This document shows, one piece after another, positions 706 to 5,516 of a stretch of 5,516 bases of DNA. Below the pieces are notes generated by a model, which was given only the letters and a program-made list of their open reading frames with translations, had not been told where the DNA came from and searched no databases. A program made the translations under genes and the position numbers. Position 1 is the stretch's first letter. Every line of letters begins with the position of its first letter. The stretch comes from Desulfoplanes sp. (GTDB lineage: Bacteria; Desulfobacterota; Desulfovibrionia; Desulfovibrionales; Desulfomicrobiaceae), in the NCBI GenBank assembly GCA_028708105.1, contig JAQVZR010000151.1, forward strand, positions 1 through 5,516, in the 5' to 3' direction.

Positions 706-2889
706 ATGAAATATTACGCACATTCGACGGATAATCCGGACAAATCTGACTGGCAGGGGCTTAAAGAACATCTTCAGAATGTGGCGGATCTGGCTTCGGG
801 TTTTGCTGAGGTGTTCAGTGCAAGAGAGTGGGGGGTTATGGCGGGATTGTTGCACGATGCGGGCAAGGCCACCCATGCGTTTATTCGGCGTCTCGAAGGT
901 CAGCCCATTCGTGTCAACCATTCCATTTTTGGGGCCAGACTCAGCCGGGAACTGGGGGGAAAACTGGGGCTTCTCATGTCCTATGCCATTGCCGGACATC
1001 ATGGCGGCCTTCCCGATGGCGGCATTCAGGAAGGTCAATTGCATTATCGTCTCAAACATGAACGGATACCAGACGTGGCGAAGATTATGCCCGCCATGGA
1101 AACTCCGATTGATTTGCGACTGCCGTTTACCAAGCGTCCGGAGCATCCCGGTTTTGCTTTGTCCTTTTTTACCCGCATGATTTTTTCCTGCCTCACAGAT
1201 GCGGATTTTCTTGATACTGAAGCCTTTTGTGATCCAAACAGAAATGTTGCACGCACACGTATCTGTACACGTAAGAGTGACCTTGCTTCACTGAGGGACG
1301 CATTGAATGACCGGCTCACCAATTTGGAGAAACATGCTGTGCCGTCCAGAGTCAACACGTTACGTCGGTCGGTTTTGAATGATTGTCGTGTTGCAGCCAG
1401 AAAAGAGTCCGGTTTCTTTTCCCTGTCTGTGCCCACGGGCGGGGGAAAAACGCTCTCATCCATGGCCTTTGCCTTAGATCATGCCGTGACGCACGGGTTG
1501 CGCCGTATCATCTACGCCATTCCTTTTACCTCCATCATCGAGCAGAACGCCCACGTTTTTTCTTCTGTGTTTGGCAGAGAGAACGTGCTGGAGCATCATT
1601 GCAATTACAAGAACAAAGATGTTCCCGAAGAAGAAGGGTATGACCGCTGGCGGGGCTTGGCCGTTGAAAACTGGGATGCACCCGTGGTTGTCACCACCAA
1701 CGTGCAATTTTTTGAATCCCTGTTCAGCAACAAGCCTTCACGATGTCGCAAACTGCACAATATTGCACGTAGCGTCATTGTGCTCGACGAGGCCCAGGCC
1801 ATCCCCACGGAATATCTGGAACCATGCCTTTGCGCCTTGCGCGAGCTGGTGGAGCATTATGGCTGTTCTGTGGTGTTGTGCACAGCCACCCAGCCGGCTC
1901 TGGATGACGAGAGCCTCCGCAGTCGTCTACAGCAGGTACAGGAAATTGTAACCGATCCGAAAAGACTTTATGCTGAACTCAAACGTATCAAGGTTATTTT
2001 TGAGGGTTCCTTGACGGATGAACTATTGTCCGAGCGGATCGCCAGCTTAAGGCAGGTCTTGTGCATTGTCAGCACTAAGCCTCAGGCGAGGAAGGTGTTT
2101 GAACGGTTGCCTGAACGCGACGGTGCGTTTCACTTATCAACCAACATGTATCCCGTGCACCGGCGCCGGGTACTGGATACCATTTGTCAGCGGCTGAAAG
2201 AGGGCCTTGCATGCCGGGTTATTTCGACGTCGCTCATTGAGGCCGGTGTTGATGTGGATTTTCCTGTGGTCTATCGGGCCATGGCCGGACTGGATTCCAT
2301 TGCCCAGGCTGCAGGTCGTTGTAACCGGGAGGGCCGGCAACGCGGTCTTGGGCGTGTTGTCGTTTTCGAGCCGGAAAATCCGCCTAAAATGCCCTGGCTG
2401 CAACGCTGTGCCAGCCGTGCAGGTGAAACGCTGCGTACCTTGCCCGGGGAAGATCCCCTTGGACTTGGGGCCATGCGTCGTTATTTCGAGCTGCTTTACG
2501 ACGTGCAGGATCTGGACAAGAAACAGATCGTCAAGCGGTTGAACGCGCCGGTAGACAGGAATTTGTGTTTCCCTTTTAAAGAAATCGCCCAAGATTTTCG
2601 CTTCATCGAAGATGAAGGAACCGCTGTGATCATCCCTGGAGAACCCGAGGCAGAATCCCTTCTCCAGCAGCTGCAATTCACGGAAAATCCGCGTCCTGTC
2701 TTGCGCAGGTTGCAGCAGTATGTGGTCACGGTCAGGTCCAGGGAACTGGCCAAGCTTTATTCGGATGGAGCCATTGAAATGATTCAAGATTCCTACCCTG
2801 TGCTGCGCAATATGGCCGCCTATAATGAACATGTGGGCCTGTGCGTGGATGAAAGTGAGGTGTGGGATGAATCCAGTTTGATTCTTTAA
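706..2889 (+). CDS. cas3: CRISPR-associated nuclease/helicase Cas3, type I-C (HD domain fused to DExH-like helicase)
   Basis: This is the effector nuclease-helicase of type I interference: once Cascade forms an R-loop, Cas3 nicks the displaced strand and unwinds and degrades it. The product is 727 aa. The N-terminal HD nuclease shows H22, the HD pair H50-D51 in GLLHDAGKA, H72 (NHSIFGARL), H98-H99 (AGHHGG) and D165/D167 near its end. The helicase shows Walker A at 243-249 (PTGGGKT, K248), motif II DEAQ at 361-364, motif III TAT at 393-395, motif V around 511-518 (IEAGVDVD) and motif VI QAAGRCNREG at 534-543. All core motifs are present, so it looks active. The ATG at 706 is chosen because MKYYAHSTDNPDKSDW is a typical I-C Cas3 start. 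AGGAG at 687-691 is its likely ribosome site, though 14 nt spacing is long. In-frame ATGs upstream, back to 394, give no Cas3-like sequence. The stop codon lies inside the sequence matched by the downstream pseudo-spacer. Confidence 0.96.
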   Translation: MKYYAHSTDNPDKSDWQGLKEHLQNVADLASGFAEVFSAREWGVMAGLLHDAGKATHAFIRRLEGQPIRVNHSIFGARLSRELGGKLGLLMSYAIAGHHGGLPDGGIQEGQLHYRLKHERIPDVAKIMPAMETPIDLRLPFTKRPEHPGFALSFFTRMIFSCLTDADFLDTEAFCDPNRNVARTRICTRKSDLASLRDALNDRLTNLEKHAVPSRVNTLRRSVLNDCRVAARKESGFFSLSVPTGGGKTLSSMAFALDHAVTHGLRRIIYAIPFTSIIEQNAHVFSSVFGRENVLEHHCNYKNKDVPEEEGYDRWRGLAVENWDAPVVVTTNVQFFESLFSNKPSRCRKLHNIARSVIVLDEAQAIPTEYLEPCLCALRELVEHYGCSVVLCTATQPALDDESLRSRLQQVQEIVTDPKRLYAELKRIKVIFEGSLTDELLSERIASLRQVLCIVSTKPQARKVFERLPERDGAFHLSTNMYPVHRRRVLDTICQRLKEGLACRVISTSLIEAGVDVDFPVVYRAMAGLDSIAQAAGRCNREGRQRGLGRVVVFEPENPPKMPWLQRCASRAGETLRTLPGEDPLGLGAMRRYFELLYDVQDLDKKQIVKRLNAPVDRNLCFPFKEIAQDFRFIEDEGTAVIIPGEPEAESLLQQLQFTENPRPVLRRLQQYVVTVRSRELAKLYSDGAIEMIQDSYPVLRNMAAYNEHVGLCVDESEVWDESSLIL

Positions 2890-2905
2890 TAAAAACTCAT
2901 TTGAA
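2886..2905 (-). promoter_or_regulatory. Self-target site of the mini-CRISPR pseudo-spacer, with TTC PAM
   Basis: Read on the - strand, the sequence is TTC (bases 2905-2903) followed by AAATGAGTTTTTATTAA (2902-2886). Those 17 nt are identical to the first 17 nt of the pseudo-spacer at 3102-3118. TTC directly 5' of the protospacer is the established PAM of type I-C systems. Identity stops after position 17, so a 34-nt protospacer here (2869-2902) would be paired only in its PAM-proximal half. The match covers the cas3 stop codon, and the PAM lies 8 bp upstream of the TTGACA hexamer. The repeat end next to the spacer reads AAC at the PAM position, so the mini-array would not target itself. Cascade loaded with this RNA should bind here and could repress the adjacent promoter or block transcription coming from cas3. 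That outcome is inferred. Confidence 0.82.
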
Positions 2906-2913
2906 ATTTTTTA

Positions 2914-2942
2914 TTGACATTGGCAAGCACTATTCATATTCA
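2914..2942 (+). promoter_or_regulatory. Candidate promoter of the putative creT-like RNA
   Basis: A perfect sigma-70 -35 hexamer, TTGACA, lies at 2914-2919. The -10 is less clear. TATTCA at 2937-2942 has the ideal 17-bp spacing but only three consensus bases. CATATT (2935-2940, spacing 15) and TTCAAT (2939-2944, spacing 19) match at four. Transcription would start at about 2949-2951, just before the ATG AGG AGG TGA mini-ORF. The PAM-flanked self-target ends 8 bp upstream, close enough for a bound Cascade to interfere with polymerase. Read-through from this promoter could also supply cas5c-cas8c mRNA. Confidence 0.5.
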
Positions 2943-2955
2943 ATAGGCAAAATTG

Positions 2956-2967
2956 ATGAGGAGGTGA
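2956..2967 (+). CDS. Mini-ORF Met-Arg-Arg-stop (ATG AGG AGG TGA), candidate tRNA-sequestering element
   Basis: This is a three-codon reading frame with two consecutive AGG arginine codons immediately followed by a stop. Minigenes of this kind (start, rare codons, stop) are known to trap peptidyl-tRNA, and CreT toxins use the same principle. The alternative reading is that AGGAGGTGA is simply a ribosome binding site, but the downstream start spacing is poor. Whether AGG is rare in this host cannot be judged fully from one window. AGG does occur in cas3 and cas8c, but far less often than CGN codons. Confidence 0.3.
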   Translation: MRR

Positions 2968-2980
2968 GCTTAGGAAAAGT

Positions 2981-3010
2981 ATGTTTTGCCTGTGGAATTT
3001 GTGGCTATGA
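2981..3010 (+). CDS. Possible 9-codon leader-like peptide MFCLWNLWL
   Basis: The ATG at 2981 is preceded by TAGGA (2971-2975) with 5 nt spacing, and upstream by the AGGAGGTGA block. The peptide MFCLWNLWL is hydrophobic and has two tryptophans in nine residues. Its TGA overlaps a further ATG (ATGA at 3007-3010) that opens a 25-codon frame ending at 3084, inside the CRISPR-like repeat. It is too short for any statistical support. It may be part of the toxin RNA, a translated leader, or chance. Confidence 0.2.
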   Translation: MFCLWNLWL

Positions 3011-3025
3011 ATTATGTGAAATCGG

Positions 3026-3047
3026 ATTCTCCACGAATTCTCCACGG
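3026..3047 (+). repeat. Tandem 11-bp repeat complementary to the CRISPR-like repeat
   Basis: ATTCTCCACGA (3026-3036) is followed directly by ATTCTCCACGG (3037-3047), identical at 10 of 11 positions and spaced one helical turn apart. Each copy contains TCCACG, the reverse complement of CGTGGA in the CRISPR-like repeat. The first copy extends this to TCCACGAA (3030-3037), pairing with TTCGTGGA (3087-3094). The pair of boxes occupies the -35 region of the candidate mini-CRISPR promoter, so it could be an operator. In a longer transcript it could also act as an anti-repeat that disrupts the repeat hairpin. Confidence 0.5.
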
Positions 3048-3055
3048 AACCCCCA

Positions 3056-3061
3056 TAAAAT
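3056..3061 (+). promoter_or_regulatory. Candidate -10 element of the crRNA-like RNA
   Basis: TAAAAT matches the sigma-70 -10 consensus at five of six positions. A start about 7 nt downstream falls at A3068, two bases before the first base of the CRISPR-like repeat at 3070. No good -35 hexamer lies 16-18 bp upstream; that position is taken by the tandem 11-bp boxes, which may bind an activator or repressor instead. Confidence 0.45.
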
Positions 3062-3069
3062 GGTTCTAT

Positions 3070-3101
3070 GTCGGCTTCTTTTGAAGTTCGTGGATTGAAA
3101 C
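3070..3101 (+). repeat. Single type I-C CRISPR repeat-like sequence
   Basis: This 32-nt element has the length and layout of canonical I-C repeats. It begins GTCG and ends CGTGGATTGAAAC (3089-3101), 13 nt identical to the 3' end typical of I-C repeats. In the middle CTTC (3075-3078) pairs with GAAG (3083-3086) around a TTTT loop, extended by two G-U pairs on the + strand RNA. This replaces the usual GC-rich stem while keeping its place and the 4-nt loop. Only one clear copy is present, so it is not a normal array. The G-U pairs show that the + strand is the intended RNA. Confidence 0.85.
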
Positions 3102-3135
3102 AAATGAGTTTTTATTAAGTGTTATGTGGCAGTAG

Positions 3136-3170
3136 ACTGCACGAAATTACAAAAATTTCGTGCAGTTTTA
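3136..3170 (+). terminator. Hairpin with T tract: terminator and likely 3' stem-loop of the crRNA-like RNA
   Basis: ACTGCACGAAATT (3136-3148) and AATTTCGTGCAGT (3154-3166) form a perfect 13-bp stem with a 5-nt ACAAA loop, followed by TTTTA. This looks like a Rho-independent terminator with a short T tract. Its start lies exactly 34 nt after the repeat, so it probably also serves as the 3' stem-loop of the mature guide RNA. The right arm shares TTCGTG with the CRISPR-like repeat and may descend from a second, degenerated repeat. It lies 10 nt before the cas5c ribosome site, so it may limit transcription into the Cascade genes. Confidence 0.8.
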
Positions 3171-3188
3171 TCAGCTAAGGAGGCGCTT

Positions 3189-3857
3189 ATGGCATTCGGT
3201 ATCAAACTGCGGGTCTGGGGAGAGTATGCCTGCTTCACCAGACCGGAAATGAAGGTGGAGCGGGTCTCCTATGACGTGATGACCCCGTCTGCAGCACGGG
3301 GCATCCTGGAGGCCGTTTATTGGAAACCGGCCATTCGTTGGGTGGTGGACAAGATTCATGTGCTCAAGCCCATCGTTTTTGACAATGTTCGGCGCAATGA
3401 AGTCAGCTCCAAGATCTCAAAACCCAATCCTGTTACGGTGGTTAAGAATAAAAAACCGCTTTATTTTTTGGTTGATGACGGTGGAAACCGGCAACAGCGG
3501 GCTACGACTCTGCTTCGCAACGTCGAATATGTCATTGATGCCCATTTCGACCTTACCGACAAGGCCGGACCAGGAGACAATGCGGGCAAGCATCTGGATA
3601 TATTCAACCGTCGGGCCAGGGCCGGGCAGTTTTTCCATCAGCCCTGTTTGGGTTGCAGGGAGTTTCCGGCGTTTTTCGAGTTGCTGGAAGAGGAGGATAT
3701 CCCCGCCTCCTGCTACACGGGTGAGAAGCGGGAACTGGGCTATATGCTCCTGGATATTGATTTCGAGCACGACATGACTCCGCTTTTCTTCAAGGCTGTT
3801 ATGAAAGACGGAGTCATAGAACCGCCTTCGCGTTTTTCGGTGGAGGTGCGGGCATGA
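3189..3857 (+). CDS. cas5c: Cas5c (Cas5d), pre-crRNA endoribonuclease and Cascade subunit, type I-C
   Basis: In type I-C, which lacks Cas6, Cas5c cuts the pre-crRNA at the base of the repeat hairpin and stays bound to the 5' handle within Cascade. The product is 222 aa, normal for the family. MAFGIKLRVWGEYACFTRPEM is the typical N-terminal RAMP strand. Y44 in EAVYWKPAI and K134-H135 in NAGKHLDIF align by motif with the catalytic Tyr-Lys-His of the Bacillus halodurans enzyme (Y46, K116, H117). Also present are RRARAGQ (141-147) and LGCREFP (154-160). The ATG at 3189 has a near-perfect site AAGGAGG (3177-3183) with 5 nt spacing. A GTG at 3126 would extend the frame through the upstream hairpin and is rejected. 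The stop overlaps the cas8c start. Since a CRISPR-like repeat lies just upstream, Cas5c may also cut any mRNA that reads through it. Confidence 0.95.
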   Translation: MAFGIKLRVWGEYACFTRPEMKVERVSYDVMTPSAARGILEAVYWKPAIRWVVDKIHVLKPIVFDNVRRNEVSSKISKPNPVTVVKNKKPLYFLVDDGGNRQQRATTLLRNVEYVIDAHFDLTDKAGPGDNAGKHLDIFNRRARAGQFFHQPCLGCREFPAFFELLEEEDIPASCYTGEKRELGYMLLDIDFEHDMTPLFFKAVMKDGVIEPPSRFSVEVRA

Positions 3858-5516
3858 TTCTCCAGGCTTTGTATGAGTATTACCAACGCATGAATGCCGA
3901 TCCGGATTCAGGCATACCGTCTTATGGCACAAGCATGGAAAATATCTCTTTTGCCCTGGTGCTGGATGCGAAGGGACATTTACGCAACATTGAAGATTTG
4001 CGGGAACAGGAAGGCAAAAAGCTTCGCCCCCGTAAGATGGCTGTGCCTATTGCAGAAAAAAAAGCCAACGGTATCAAGCCTAATTTTTTGTGGGATACGA
4101 CAAATTATGTACTGGGGAAAGGCAAGGAAAAAGACACGGAGAATGAAAAAAAGAAGATTAAAAATGTAGAGCGCATAGCCAAATGTCATGCTTCTTTTGT
4201 TGAATACATGAAGACGTATTGTGATGAGTCCGATCCCGGCCTCGCGGCTGTGCGCACATTTCTCACAGGCGAGGGTAACGATATCTCCGGTTTTCCAAAT
4301 TCCGAGGAAGTCATCGGAACCAATGTTGTTTTTCGGTTAGAAGGAGAACGGGGCTTTGTGCACGATCGTCCGGCAGCTCGCAAGGCTTGGGCATCATGTT
4401 TACGCCAGCGTGAACAGGGCGTCCTTGGTCAATGTCTGGTGACGGGAGAGACATCCAAGCCTATTGCTCGGCTTCATCCCTCAATTAAAGGCGTACGAGG
4501 TGCTCAGTCGGCAGGAGCGTCCATTGTTGCCTTCGAGCTTGCCTCTGTTAAATCATACGGCAAAGAACGTTCCTATAACGCGCCTGTTAGTCAATATGCA
4601 GCTTTTAGCTATGTTTCTGCACTGAATTTTCTTTTGAGTGGAATCAATCGTCAAAAAGTCACCATCGGCGATGCCACCATTGTTTTCTGGGCCGAGCGCA
4701 TGAGCCCGGCTGAGGATTTTCTGGCCGATCTTTTTGATCCGCCATCCGAGGTGACCCCGCCCGTTACCTCGGAGGACCCTCAAACCACAACCAAAATTCA
4801 CGACCTGCTCCAGGCCCTACGTTCCGGCAGACGGGCCGTGGATATCATGCCGGATCTTGATGAATCCGTGCATTTTTATCTGCTGGCTTTGGCTCCCAAC
4901 GCAGCCCGTTTGTCCATCCGCTTTTGGGACGTCGATACGGTGGGTGGTCTACTGAAAAAGGTCGGAAAATATTTTCAGGATCTCGAAATCGTTCGGCAAT
5001 ATGATAACGAACCGGAATTTCCGCCCCTCTGGCGTTTACTGCGTCAGACAGCAGTTTTGGATAAAAGTGAGAATATTTCTCCTGTGCTGGCAGGAGGTAT
5101 GGCAAGAGCCATGCTTTCCGGCGTGCGGTATCCGCAGAATCTGCTTCCAGCTGTACTGGGCCGCATACGGGCCGAGCACAAGGTAACGTATTTTCGTGCA
5201 GCGCTCATCAAGGCATTTCTTACAAGAAACAAACGAATGGAGGTTCCCGTGTCACTTGATCCTTCAAGGACTGACCGTCCTTATTTACTCGGCAGACTGT
5301 TCGCTGTTCTGGAAAAAGCCCAGGAAGATGCTGTGCCCGGTGCCAACGCGACCATCAAAGATCGCTATCTCAGTTCTGCATCGGCCACTGCGGGGCAGGT
5401 TTTCCACATGTTGCTTAAAAATGCGGCTAATCATACGGCCAAGCTGCGCAAGGACCCGGAAAAGAAAGGCCGGGCGTTCCACTACGACACAATGATTCAG
5501 GATATCATGAATGCCT
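3854..5516 (+). CDS. cas8c: Cas8c (Csd1), large subunit of type I-C Cascade, 3' end outside the window
   Basis: Cas8c recognises the PAM and helps recruit Cas3. The frame is open for 554 codons to the right edge without a stop; family members are about 570-620 aa, so only a short C-terminus is missing. The N-terminus MILQALYEYYQRMNADPDSGIPSYG and the block around 195-245 (CLVTGETSKPIARLHPSIKG, GAQSAGAS, SYGKERSYNAPVS) are characteristic of Csd1/Cas8c. Further hallmarks are FWAERM (278-283) and LSIRFWDVDTVG (353-364). The start overlaps the cas5c stop as ATGA, with GGAGG at 3842-3846 and 7 nt spacing, which indicates translational coupling. A lysine-rich stretch at residues 89-104 is probably a flexible loop. 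The last third doubles as the small subunit Cas11c. Confidence 0.95.
   Translation, partial: MILQALYEYYQRMNADPDSGIPSYGTSMENISFALVLDAKGHLRNIEDLREQEGKKLRPRKMAVPIAEKKANGIKPNFLWDTTNYVLGKGKEKDTENEKKKIKNVERIAKCHASFVEYMKTYCDESDPGLAAVRTFLTGEGNDISGFPNSEEVIGTNVVFRLEGERGFVHDRPAARKAWASCLRQREQGVLGQCLVTGETSKPIARLHPSIKGVRGAQSAGASIVAFELASVKSYGKERSYNAPVSQYAAFSYVSALNFLLSGINRQKVTIGDATIVFWAERMSPAEDFLADLFDPPSEVTPPVTSEDPQTTTKIHDLLQALRSGRRAVDIMPDLDESVHFYLLALAPNAARLSIRFWDVDTVGGLLKKVGKYFQDLEIVRQYDNEPEFPPLWRLLRQTAVLDKSENISPVLAGGMARAMLSGVRYPQNLLPAVLGRIRAEHKVTYFRAALIKAFLTRNKRMEVPVSLDPSRTDRPYLLGRLFAVLEKAQEDAVPGANATIKDRYLSSASATAGQVFHMLLKNAANHTAKLRKDPEKKGRAFHYDTMIQDIMNA
5249..5516 (+). CDS. cas11c: Cas11c, small Cascade subunit from an internal in-frame start in cas8c (partial)
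   Basis: Type I-C systems make their small subunit by internal translation of the cas8c 3' end. Here GGAGG (5239-5243) precedes an in-frame GTG at 5249 by 5 nt, inside coding sequence where no ribosome site is otherwise needed. The product would begin (M)SLDPSRTDRPYLLGRLFAVLE, the conserved block at which Cas11c begins in studied I-C systems (by family memory). At least 89 codons lie in the window, and about 120-130 aa would be expected. Alternative starts are ATG at 5237 (overlapping the ribosome site) and the ATGs at 5099 and 5111 behind AGGAGG (5092-5097), which would give a longer form. The 5249 GTG has the best spacing. Confidence 0.7.
   Translation, partial: MSLDPSRTDRPYLLGRLFAVLEKAQEDAVPGANATIKDRYLSSASATAGQVFHMLLKNAANHTAKLRKDPEKKGRAFHYDTMIQDIMNA

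Follow-up and report, generated by a model that had tools for sequence, protein, structure and literature searches.

The type I-C locus and its cas3-cas5c gap

The DNA analysed here (the window) is a 5,516-nucleotide (nt) contig of Desulfoplanes sp. (JAQVZR010000151.1 of assembly GCA_028708105.1; C259 in our numbering), taken from a draft genome of 2.26 Mb in 392 contigs that is 77.6% complete. Profile matches to cas3, cas5c, and cas8c place its operon in CRISPR-Cas type I-C, which is not based on Cas9 and a trans-activating CRISPR RNA (tracrRNA). Our subject is the 299-nt gap between cas3 and cas5c, in which a pseudo-spacer follows a lone type I-C pseudo-repeat and matches, over its first 17 nt, a target at the end of cas3. 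Judged from the sequence comparisons below, this pair very probably yields a CRISPR RNA (crRNA)-like guide of the CreR (cas-regulating RNA) type, which would bring Cascade to its own operon and repress cas5c-cas8c without cutting. The gap holds, in order, the target, a TTGACA/-10 pair, the trace of a small open reading frame (ORF) ending EPP-stop, the pseudo-repeat, the pseudo-spacer, a hairpin with TTTT, and a Shine-Dalgarno-like AAGGAGG, after which cas5c begins, with the features of the window as follows:

706..2889, + strand: cas3 of type I-C, a helicase/HD nuclease with matches over cut-off to NCBIfam TIGR01587 and TIGR01596; the target includes its stop codon
2886..2902, - strand: 17-nt protospacer (target) of the pseudo-spacer, an exact match that is kept in many relatives
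2903..2905, - strand: TTC protospacer-adjacent motif (PAM) of the target, from sequence; TTC in 26 of 29 strong matches of relatives, with no PAM demanded
2914..2942, + strand: predicted promoter, TTGACA (2914-2919), 17 nt, TATTCA (2937-2942), from sequence; a -35-like box is enriched nearby in relatives
3047..3058, + strand: EPP-stop trace of a small ORF of 24 amino acids, intact in five related loci and interrupted in the window
3070..3101, + strand: solitary pseudo-repeat that ends in the type I-C 3' sequence GTGGATTGAAAC and can form a short stem, from sequence comparison
3102..3133, + strand: pseudo-spacer of about 32-34 nt, seed 3102-3118, from sequence
3134..3168, + strand: hairpin of 15 base pairs (bp), then TTTT (3166-3169), from folding; hairpins are predicted after the guide in relatives too
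3189..3857, + strand: cas5c, predicted pre-crRNA processing enzyme (TIGR01876, 184 bits)
3854..5516, + strand: cas8c/Csd1, leaving the contig end (TIGR01863, 562 bits)

Match between the pseudo-spacer and the end of cas3

An earlier reading of the window from its letters alone (the sequence-only reading) had reported 3102-3118 as an exact inverted copy of 2902-2886 beside a TTC PAM, with pairing starting at the PAM-proximal end and stopping after 17 nt, and had considered a chance match very unlikely; all of this is borne out. A repeat search finds inverted-repeat arms at 2886-2903 and 3101-3118, 18 nt long, 100% complementary, and 197 nt apart. The C at 3101, which closes the repeat, corresponds to the C of TTC, and as it belongs to the repeat, the match of the spacer itself spans 17 nt (3102-3118 against minus strand 2902-2886), with the PAM at 2905-2903 of the minus strand reading TTC. 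Position 18 is mismatched and 3 of the next 18 positions agree, the match stopping at 17 of the about 32-34 nt of the pseudo-spacer. The longest TTC-adjacent run among 20,000 simulated spacer/region pairs with the composition of the gap was 10 nt, and TTC plus the 17-mer, with positions 6 and 12 left open, occurs once in the draft genome, the next-best sites being the spacer itself (2 mismatches, AAC for TTC) and three others listed with 3 mismatches. The target spans the cas3 stop codon (2887-2889) and TTGACA lies 8 nt outside the PAM, in agreement with the placement at the cas3 stop region, close to a TTGACA, given by the same reading.

Conservation among Cas5c relatives

Relatives were collected through Cas5c from a named set (80 contigs, the best 80 of 583 confirmed), from genomes of the class (101 of 348 matched) and of the phylum (89 of 395 matched), and from one plasmid, the class and phylum genomes supplying 30 loci with the search and 140 further stretches. 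The resulting 252 loci, the window included, were reduced to 224 by removal of near-duplicates, and to 181 with both genes and a Cas5c identity above 40%, loci at or below 40% identity or with no cas3 match being left out of gap counts. The counts of 181 gaps, 47 guides, 29 sites, and 35 matches given here were made after near-identical loci and guides had been taken out; for the count of 69 loci, this applied to loci only.

The gap between cas3 and cas5c measures 60-1200 nt in 69 of the 181 distinct loci, and a repeat-like end is present in 46 of these 69. A TTC-adjacent match of at least 12/17 between a guide and its own gap is found in 37 of the 69 loci, compared with 18 of 2,271 pairings with the guides of other loci; the seed-target match and its PAM, which the sequence-only reading had proposed to follow in homologous loci, are thus kept well above the control level. 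In the region upstream of cas3, used as a negative control, 1 of 40 own guides and 8 of 1,554 controls reach 12 positions, i.e. background. For an earlier set of 53 elements, the own guide beats all of its 50-52 control guides in 35 (by a score lenient at every sixth position), with the plain score of at least 12/17 reached by 35 of 53 own guides and 15 of 2,744 controls.

In a search of the whole locus that demanded no PAM and ignored positions 6 and 12, a match of at least 13/15 was obtained for 29 of 47 unique guides. These strong matches lie in the gap in 28 of 29 cases, the gap making up on average 4% of the sequence, and they are flanked by TTC in 26, TTT in two, and TGC in one. In three loci, L174 (15/15), L167 (13/15), and L200 (11/15, which is chance level), the best guide site in the gap follows TTT and not TTC, TTT being perhaps a variant PAM.

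Carriers with a match include Halomonas sp. Y3 (L085, 16/17), Marinobacterium weihaiense (L033), Sinimarinibacterium flocculans (L050), Desulfonema magnum (L092), and Azotobacter vinelandii (L032, 12/17, just at the threshold), together with metagenome-assembled genomes of Desulfobulbaceae (L020, L022, L025) and Gastranaerophilales (L044). The nearest Cas5c relatives of the window (L126, L128, L127, and L129) have gaps of 13-14 nt with no guide there, so the element has been gained or lost between close relatives. Homology of the gap as a whole was also sought in a DNA search of 101 genomes, which gave two weak matches (L003, L004) to the AT-rich target region; the neighbouring genes are unrelated, and we reject both as chance.

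Pairing pattern and co-variation

In the type I R-loop every sixth base is flipped out. Among 35 unique matches, counted plainly over 17 positions, mismatches occur at position 6 in 24 and at position 12 in 25, i.e. near random, with 0-9 of 35 at the other positions of 1-17 and 22-28 of 35 at positions 18-30. Sites picked by positions 1-5 and 7-11 only show 4-8 mismatches of 29 at positions 13-17, and 22 of 29 at position 18. The 35 matches include one minus-strand row of L156 with an unconvincing repeat, and with this row excluded the same mismatch pattern is seen on both strands (10 plus-strand targets, p = 4e-12; 24 minus-strand targets, p = 6e-20). Recognition of DNA by Cascade would explain both; RNA pairing does not. 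As read from these alignments, the freedom of positions 6 and 12 and the end at 17 are the signature of a type I Cascade R-loop ending after three segments. The sequence-only reading, to which this pattern was unknown, had proposed a guide that lets Cascade bind through short pairing without cleavage by Cas3, and both the pattern and the persistence of the match in relatives argue for such a guide.

The window and L227 match at 17/17, and so the free positions 6 and 12 are not visible in those two loci. Guide and target have changed together in related pairs, at position 4 in L132/L133 and at positions 5, 9, 14, 15, and 16 in L156/L164. According to passages of one study of type I-B CreA, Cascade-guided repression requires a seed of positions 1-5 and 7-11 next to TTC, whereas the 6th and 12th nt are dispensable (PMC8501985). 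L158 has two copies of a 14-nt stretch containing TTC and the target start, at 43 and 166 nt past the cas3 stop, one of which runs into TTGACA.

Promoter-like sequences beside the target

Counting outwards from the PAM, a -35-like hexamer (at least 5/6 to TTGACA) is reached within 18 nt in 19 of 25 minus-strand targets. Over the minus-strand targets the best hexamer scores 5.0 on average (mononucleotide shuffles, 3.50 +/- 0.13) and the full promoter 8.24 (shuffles, 6.53 +/- 0.19), with L032, L081, and the doubtful L156 row scoring no better than shuffles. Since the box stands just outside the PAM, bound Cascade would touch the -35 region. The start of the guide is 57-108 nt from cas5c in 23 of 34 loci, and farther in 11 (L044, L081, L086, L092, L118, L156, L158, L161, L164, L188, and L196). 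Hairpins follow the guide in most relatives, mostly with no T run (by eye), for which reason the promoter probably feeds cas5c in these loci.

Small ORFs between promoter and guide

Five loci (L017, L020, L022, L025, and L227) carry an ORF of 24 amino acids between the promoter and the pseudo-repeat. It ends in EPP-stop 153-165 nt past the cas3 stop, with the corresponding EPP-stop of the window at 157 nt, where the frame is interrupted and the stretch contains an 11-nt tandem duplication (3026-3047). Differences over the ten pairs fall at third codon positions in 129 cases, at first in 87, and at second in 48. When a model of the EPP peptide was run against 395 genomes, the single strong match came from a genome already represented among the rows of the model, and five further matches were weak (E 0.007-0.04). 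The version in L017 contains ..LKLKVWG.., which by eye resembles ..IKLRVWG.. of the Cas5c N-terminus.

Other putative ORFs, of 43-70 amino acids and with a Shine-Dalgarno match of at least 4 nt, lie between cas3 and the pseudo-repeat in L050, L032, L033, L027, L086, L141, L168, L190, and L170; several have a hydrophobic stretch (by eye), and those of L190 and L170 are a Cys-containing pair. The guide matches of L017 and L168 to their own gaps are below the threshold. No Pfam family was matched over cut-off by any of the nine small ORFs scanned (among them eight of the nine of 43-70 amino acids just listed, all but that of L170), with one weak match, to DUF3094 (E 0.075). In the short-gap loci L194, L185, and L021, and in L092, the promoter stands almost on the pseudo-repeat, leaving little room for an ORF.

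Being under the same predicted promoter, the small ORFs would be repressed with the operon, and we flag them as tiny genes with no Pfam family that may sense the loss of Cascade. A tentative possibility, to which we give a low probability, is that the type I-C cas3-cas5c gap is a Cascade-controlled switch, in which the 17-nt three-segment R-loop would hold down both the effector operon and a tiny gene (the 24-amino-acid EPP type or the 43-70-amino-acid, often hydrophobic type) between promoter and guide, the product of which would act as an alarm or addiction peptide released when Cascade is lost or is inhibited by phage.

Proposed mechanism and alternative explanations

In the mechanism that we propose, the cas5c transcript leader would contain the guide and would be cut by Cas5c at the pseudo-repeat. 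The guide-Cascade complex would then make three R-loop segments of 5+1+5+1+5 nt, too short for attack by Cas3, and would cover the -35 region and hold transcription down. The operon would be released when little Cascade is present, when array crRNAs take it up, or when anti-CRISPR proteins block it, and the amount of free Cascade would come under feedback control.

A number of observations weigh against this mechanism. Gaps of 60 nt or less, too short to hold the element, are found in 111 of the 181 loci, leaving most of the type I-C gaps examined without it, and in the nearest relative, L126 of the same genus, the gap measures 13 nt and the element is absent. The match threshold is missed by 32 of the 69 long-gap loci, some of which have TTT in place of TTC at their best site (L174, L167, and L200); others may have repeat ends outside the search pattern, and some may have no guide. 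The -10 of the window (TATTCA) is weak, and neither a promoter nor a terminator was reported by a generic scan of 2700-3300, the hairpin with TTTT being missed because its T run is shorter than the scan demands; if this hairpin itself stops transcription ahead of cas5c, as it may, the promoter would mainly feed the guide. Pseudo-repeat stems beat shuffles modestly (at least 5 bp in 23 of 35, compared with 32%), and of the 22 loci with a detected array, 10 have the same 12-nt handle in the pseudo-repeat and in that array. The draft genome holds no cas7 detectable with TIGR02589, one weak partial cas1 match, located at a contig end, and no second repeat end, which would bear on activity in this strain; given the cas7 and cas1 results, the remaining operon and array are probably unassembled. 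As to the strength of repression, passages of a type I-B study report that a 24-nt spacer represses with no interference, and that in one strain repression with spacers of 16 and 20 nt went only as far as about 67 and 65% (PMC10989794), so that 17 paired nt need not be strong.

Other explanations of the element draw on parts of the same evidence. The 18-nt perfect inverted repeat with its 197-nt spacing, in which positions 6 and 12 are also paired in the window, could be read at the RNA level, as the arms of a long-range mRNA hairpin, an antisense RNA, or the terminal inverted repeats of a small mobile element. We regard this as extremely improbable, with positions 6 and 12 free in most relatives, TTC preceding 26 of 29 strong matches, and the guides of 10 plus-strand targets having the same sense as the target, so that no pairing with the sense transcript is possible; RNA pairing and terminal inverted repeats are ruled out largely by the periodicity and the plus-strand targets. 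The single repeat, whose end has no second copy in the draft genome, would also suit a leftover self-targeting spacer, which would have survived the decay of an array and match its own genome by accident. This too is very improbable, as the same kind of match occurs in 34 loci from several phyla, with co-changing letters and, usually, an adjacent promoter-like box.

The position of the target over the cas3 stop, together with the start of 21 of 25 minus-strand targets 8-36 nt after that stop, is what would be expected if guide and Cascade mainly blocked read-through from cas3 to cas5c, setting the Cas3:Cascade ratio. Such a roadblock would not need a -35-like box, yet one is near the PAM in 19 of the 25, and plus-strand targets sit elsewhere, making this account quite unlikely. 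CreTA modules run in the order promoter, toxin, creA. CreA represses PcreTA according to passages of PMC8501985, and in a CreTA- or CrePA-like module guide and Cascade would mainly hold down the small ORF, encoding a toxin or alarm peptide freed when Cascade is lost or blocked, with the cas genes secondary. The 24-amino-acid EPP ORF of five loci, in which third codon positions change most, and the putative ORFs of 43-70 amino acids with Shine-Dalgarno matches elsewhere are consistent with this, however the ORF is interrupted in the window while the 17/17 match is kept, L194, L185, L021, and L092 offer little ORF room, and the toxin role is putative, with no Pfam match over cut-off among the nine ORFs scanned. 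We consider such a module unlikely as the main function.

These loci constitute comparative evidence for RNA-guided autorepression in type I-C from Desulfobacterota, Alpha-, Beta-, and Gammaproteobacteria, and Gastranaerophilales. On the CreR-type reading they would also form a natural experiment on the R-loop length that is enough for binding without attack, with 17 nt kept, 6 and 12 freed, and then a stop, and would furnish a search rule for such guides, namely a repeat end, a 17-nt guide, TTC, and a -35 box.

Comparison with known systems

CreR (Liu et al. 2023, PMID 37659410) has been shown for types I-B, I-E, and V-A according to passages of PMC13131331 and PMC12737573, and is called widespread in type I by one review. 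The element resembles CreR, as these passages describe it, in having a crRNA-like guide near cas genes, a partial match at a cas promoter, and predicted autorepression by the Cas effector. The CreR traits present here are a solitary degenerate repeat beside cas genes, a guide that partly matches its own predicted promoter beside a PAM, and a pairing that would be too short for interference, ending at 17 in both the window and its relatives. In contrast to CreR as described in those passages, the element belongs to type I-C and occupies the cas3-cas5c gap, with the guide in the cas5c leader between promoter and gene, a 17-nt (5+1+5+1+5) match, and often a small ORF between promoter and guide, and its repression is predicted. 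As far as the literature covered shows, the type I-C guide would be a variation on known CreR-type autorepression, with the small ORF less familiar; no report of autorepression in type I-C was found in our literature search, which covered titles, the opening parts of abstracts, and passages of some papers, with most subscription papers outside its scope. Shmakov et al. 2023 reportedly predicted standalone repeats and mini-arrays, mostly of type I, with spacers partly complementary to cas promoters, and type I-C cases may be listed among those predictions.

With CreTA, the element shares a type I guide, TTC, and a seed of 1-5 and 7-11 with 6 and 12 dispensable, and H. hispanica is described as having a form with one repeat and a terminator (passages of PMC8501985 and PMC9458426). 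In the same passages CreTA is haloarchaeal and represses an RNA toxin, whereas in the window the promoter stands ahead of cas5c and the small ORF is interrupted. The tracr-L of Cas9 systems is likewise a natural guide that silences a cas promoter without cutting, through an 11-nt match of its own beside a PAM, however it is of type II-A and acts with Cas9 and a tracrRNA (passages of PMC8616872). Racr RNA anti-CRISPRs, including RacrIC1, are similar in presenting a solitary type I-C repeat mimic, and passages of PMC10651486 describe them as repeat mimics encoded in viral genomes, in contrast to the position of the present element in a cas operon with a conserved target. Viral contigs scanned with the Cas5c of the window alone, a search that finds close relatives only, gave no match, the element sitting between cas3 and cas5c.

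Pseudo-repeat, handle, and hairpin

The draft genome has no exact GTGGATTGAAAC other than the one in the repeat at 3070-3101. The fold of this repeat, at -5.2 kcal/mol, is no better than shuffles (z -0.55), and a search of Rfam with the window gave no match up to E 1. The hairpin after the pseudo-spacer folds at -19.4 kcal/mol (z -7.1), and likely stands in for the crRNA 3' hairpin, partly terminates transcription, or both.

Eight loci have an array handle unlike GTGGATTGAAAC, with the same 12 nt found in the pseudo-repeat of four (L050, L064, L081, and L156), the changed base shared in two (L085 and L033), and the change not followed in two (L227 and L045). This mixed agreement between handles and own arrays weakly supports a use of pseudo-repeats and array repeats by the same Cas proteins. 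In L118, L161, L168, L190, and L141 the pseudo-repeat seems split, with an arm of 11-14 nt before the handle pairing with an arm after the spacer, such that the stem would close across the spacer.

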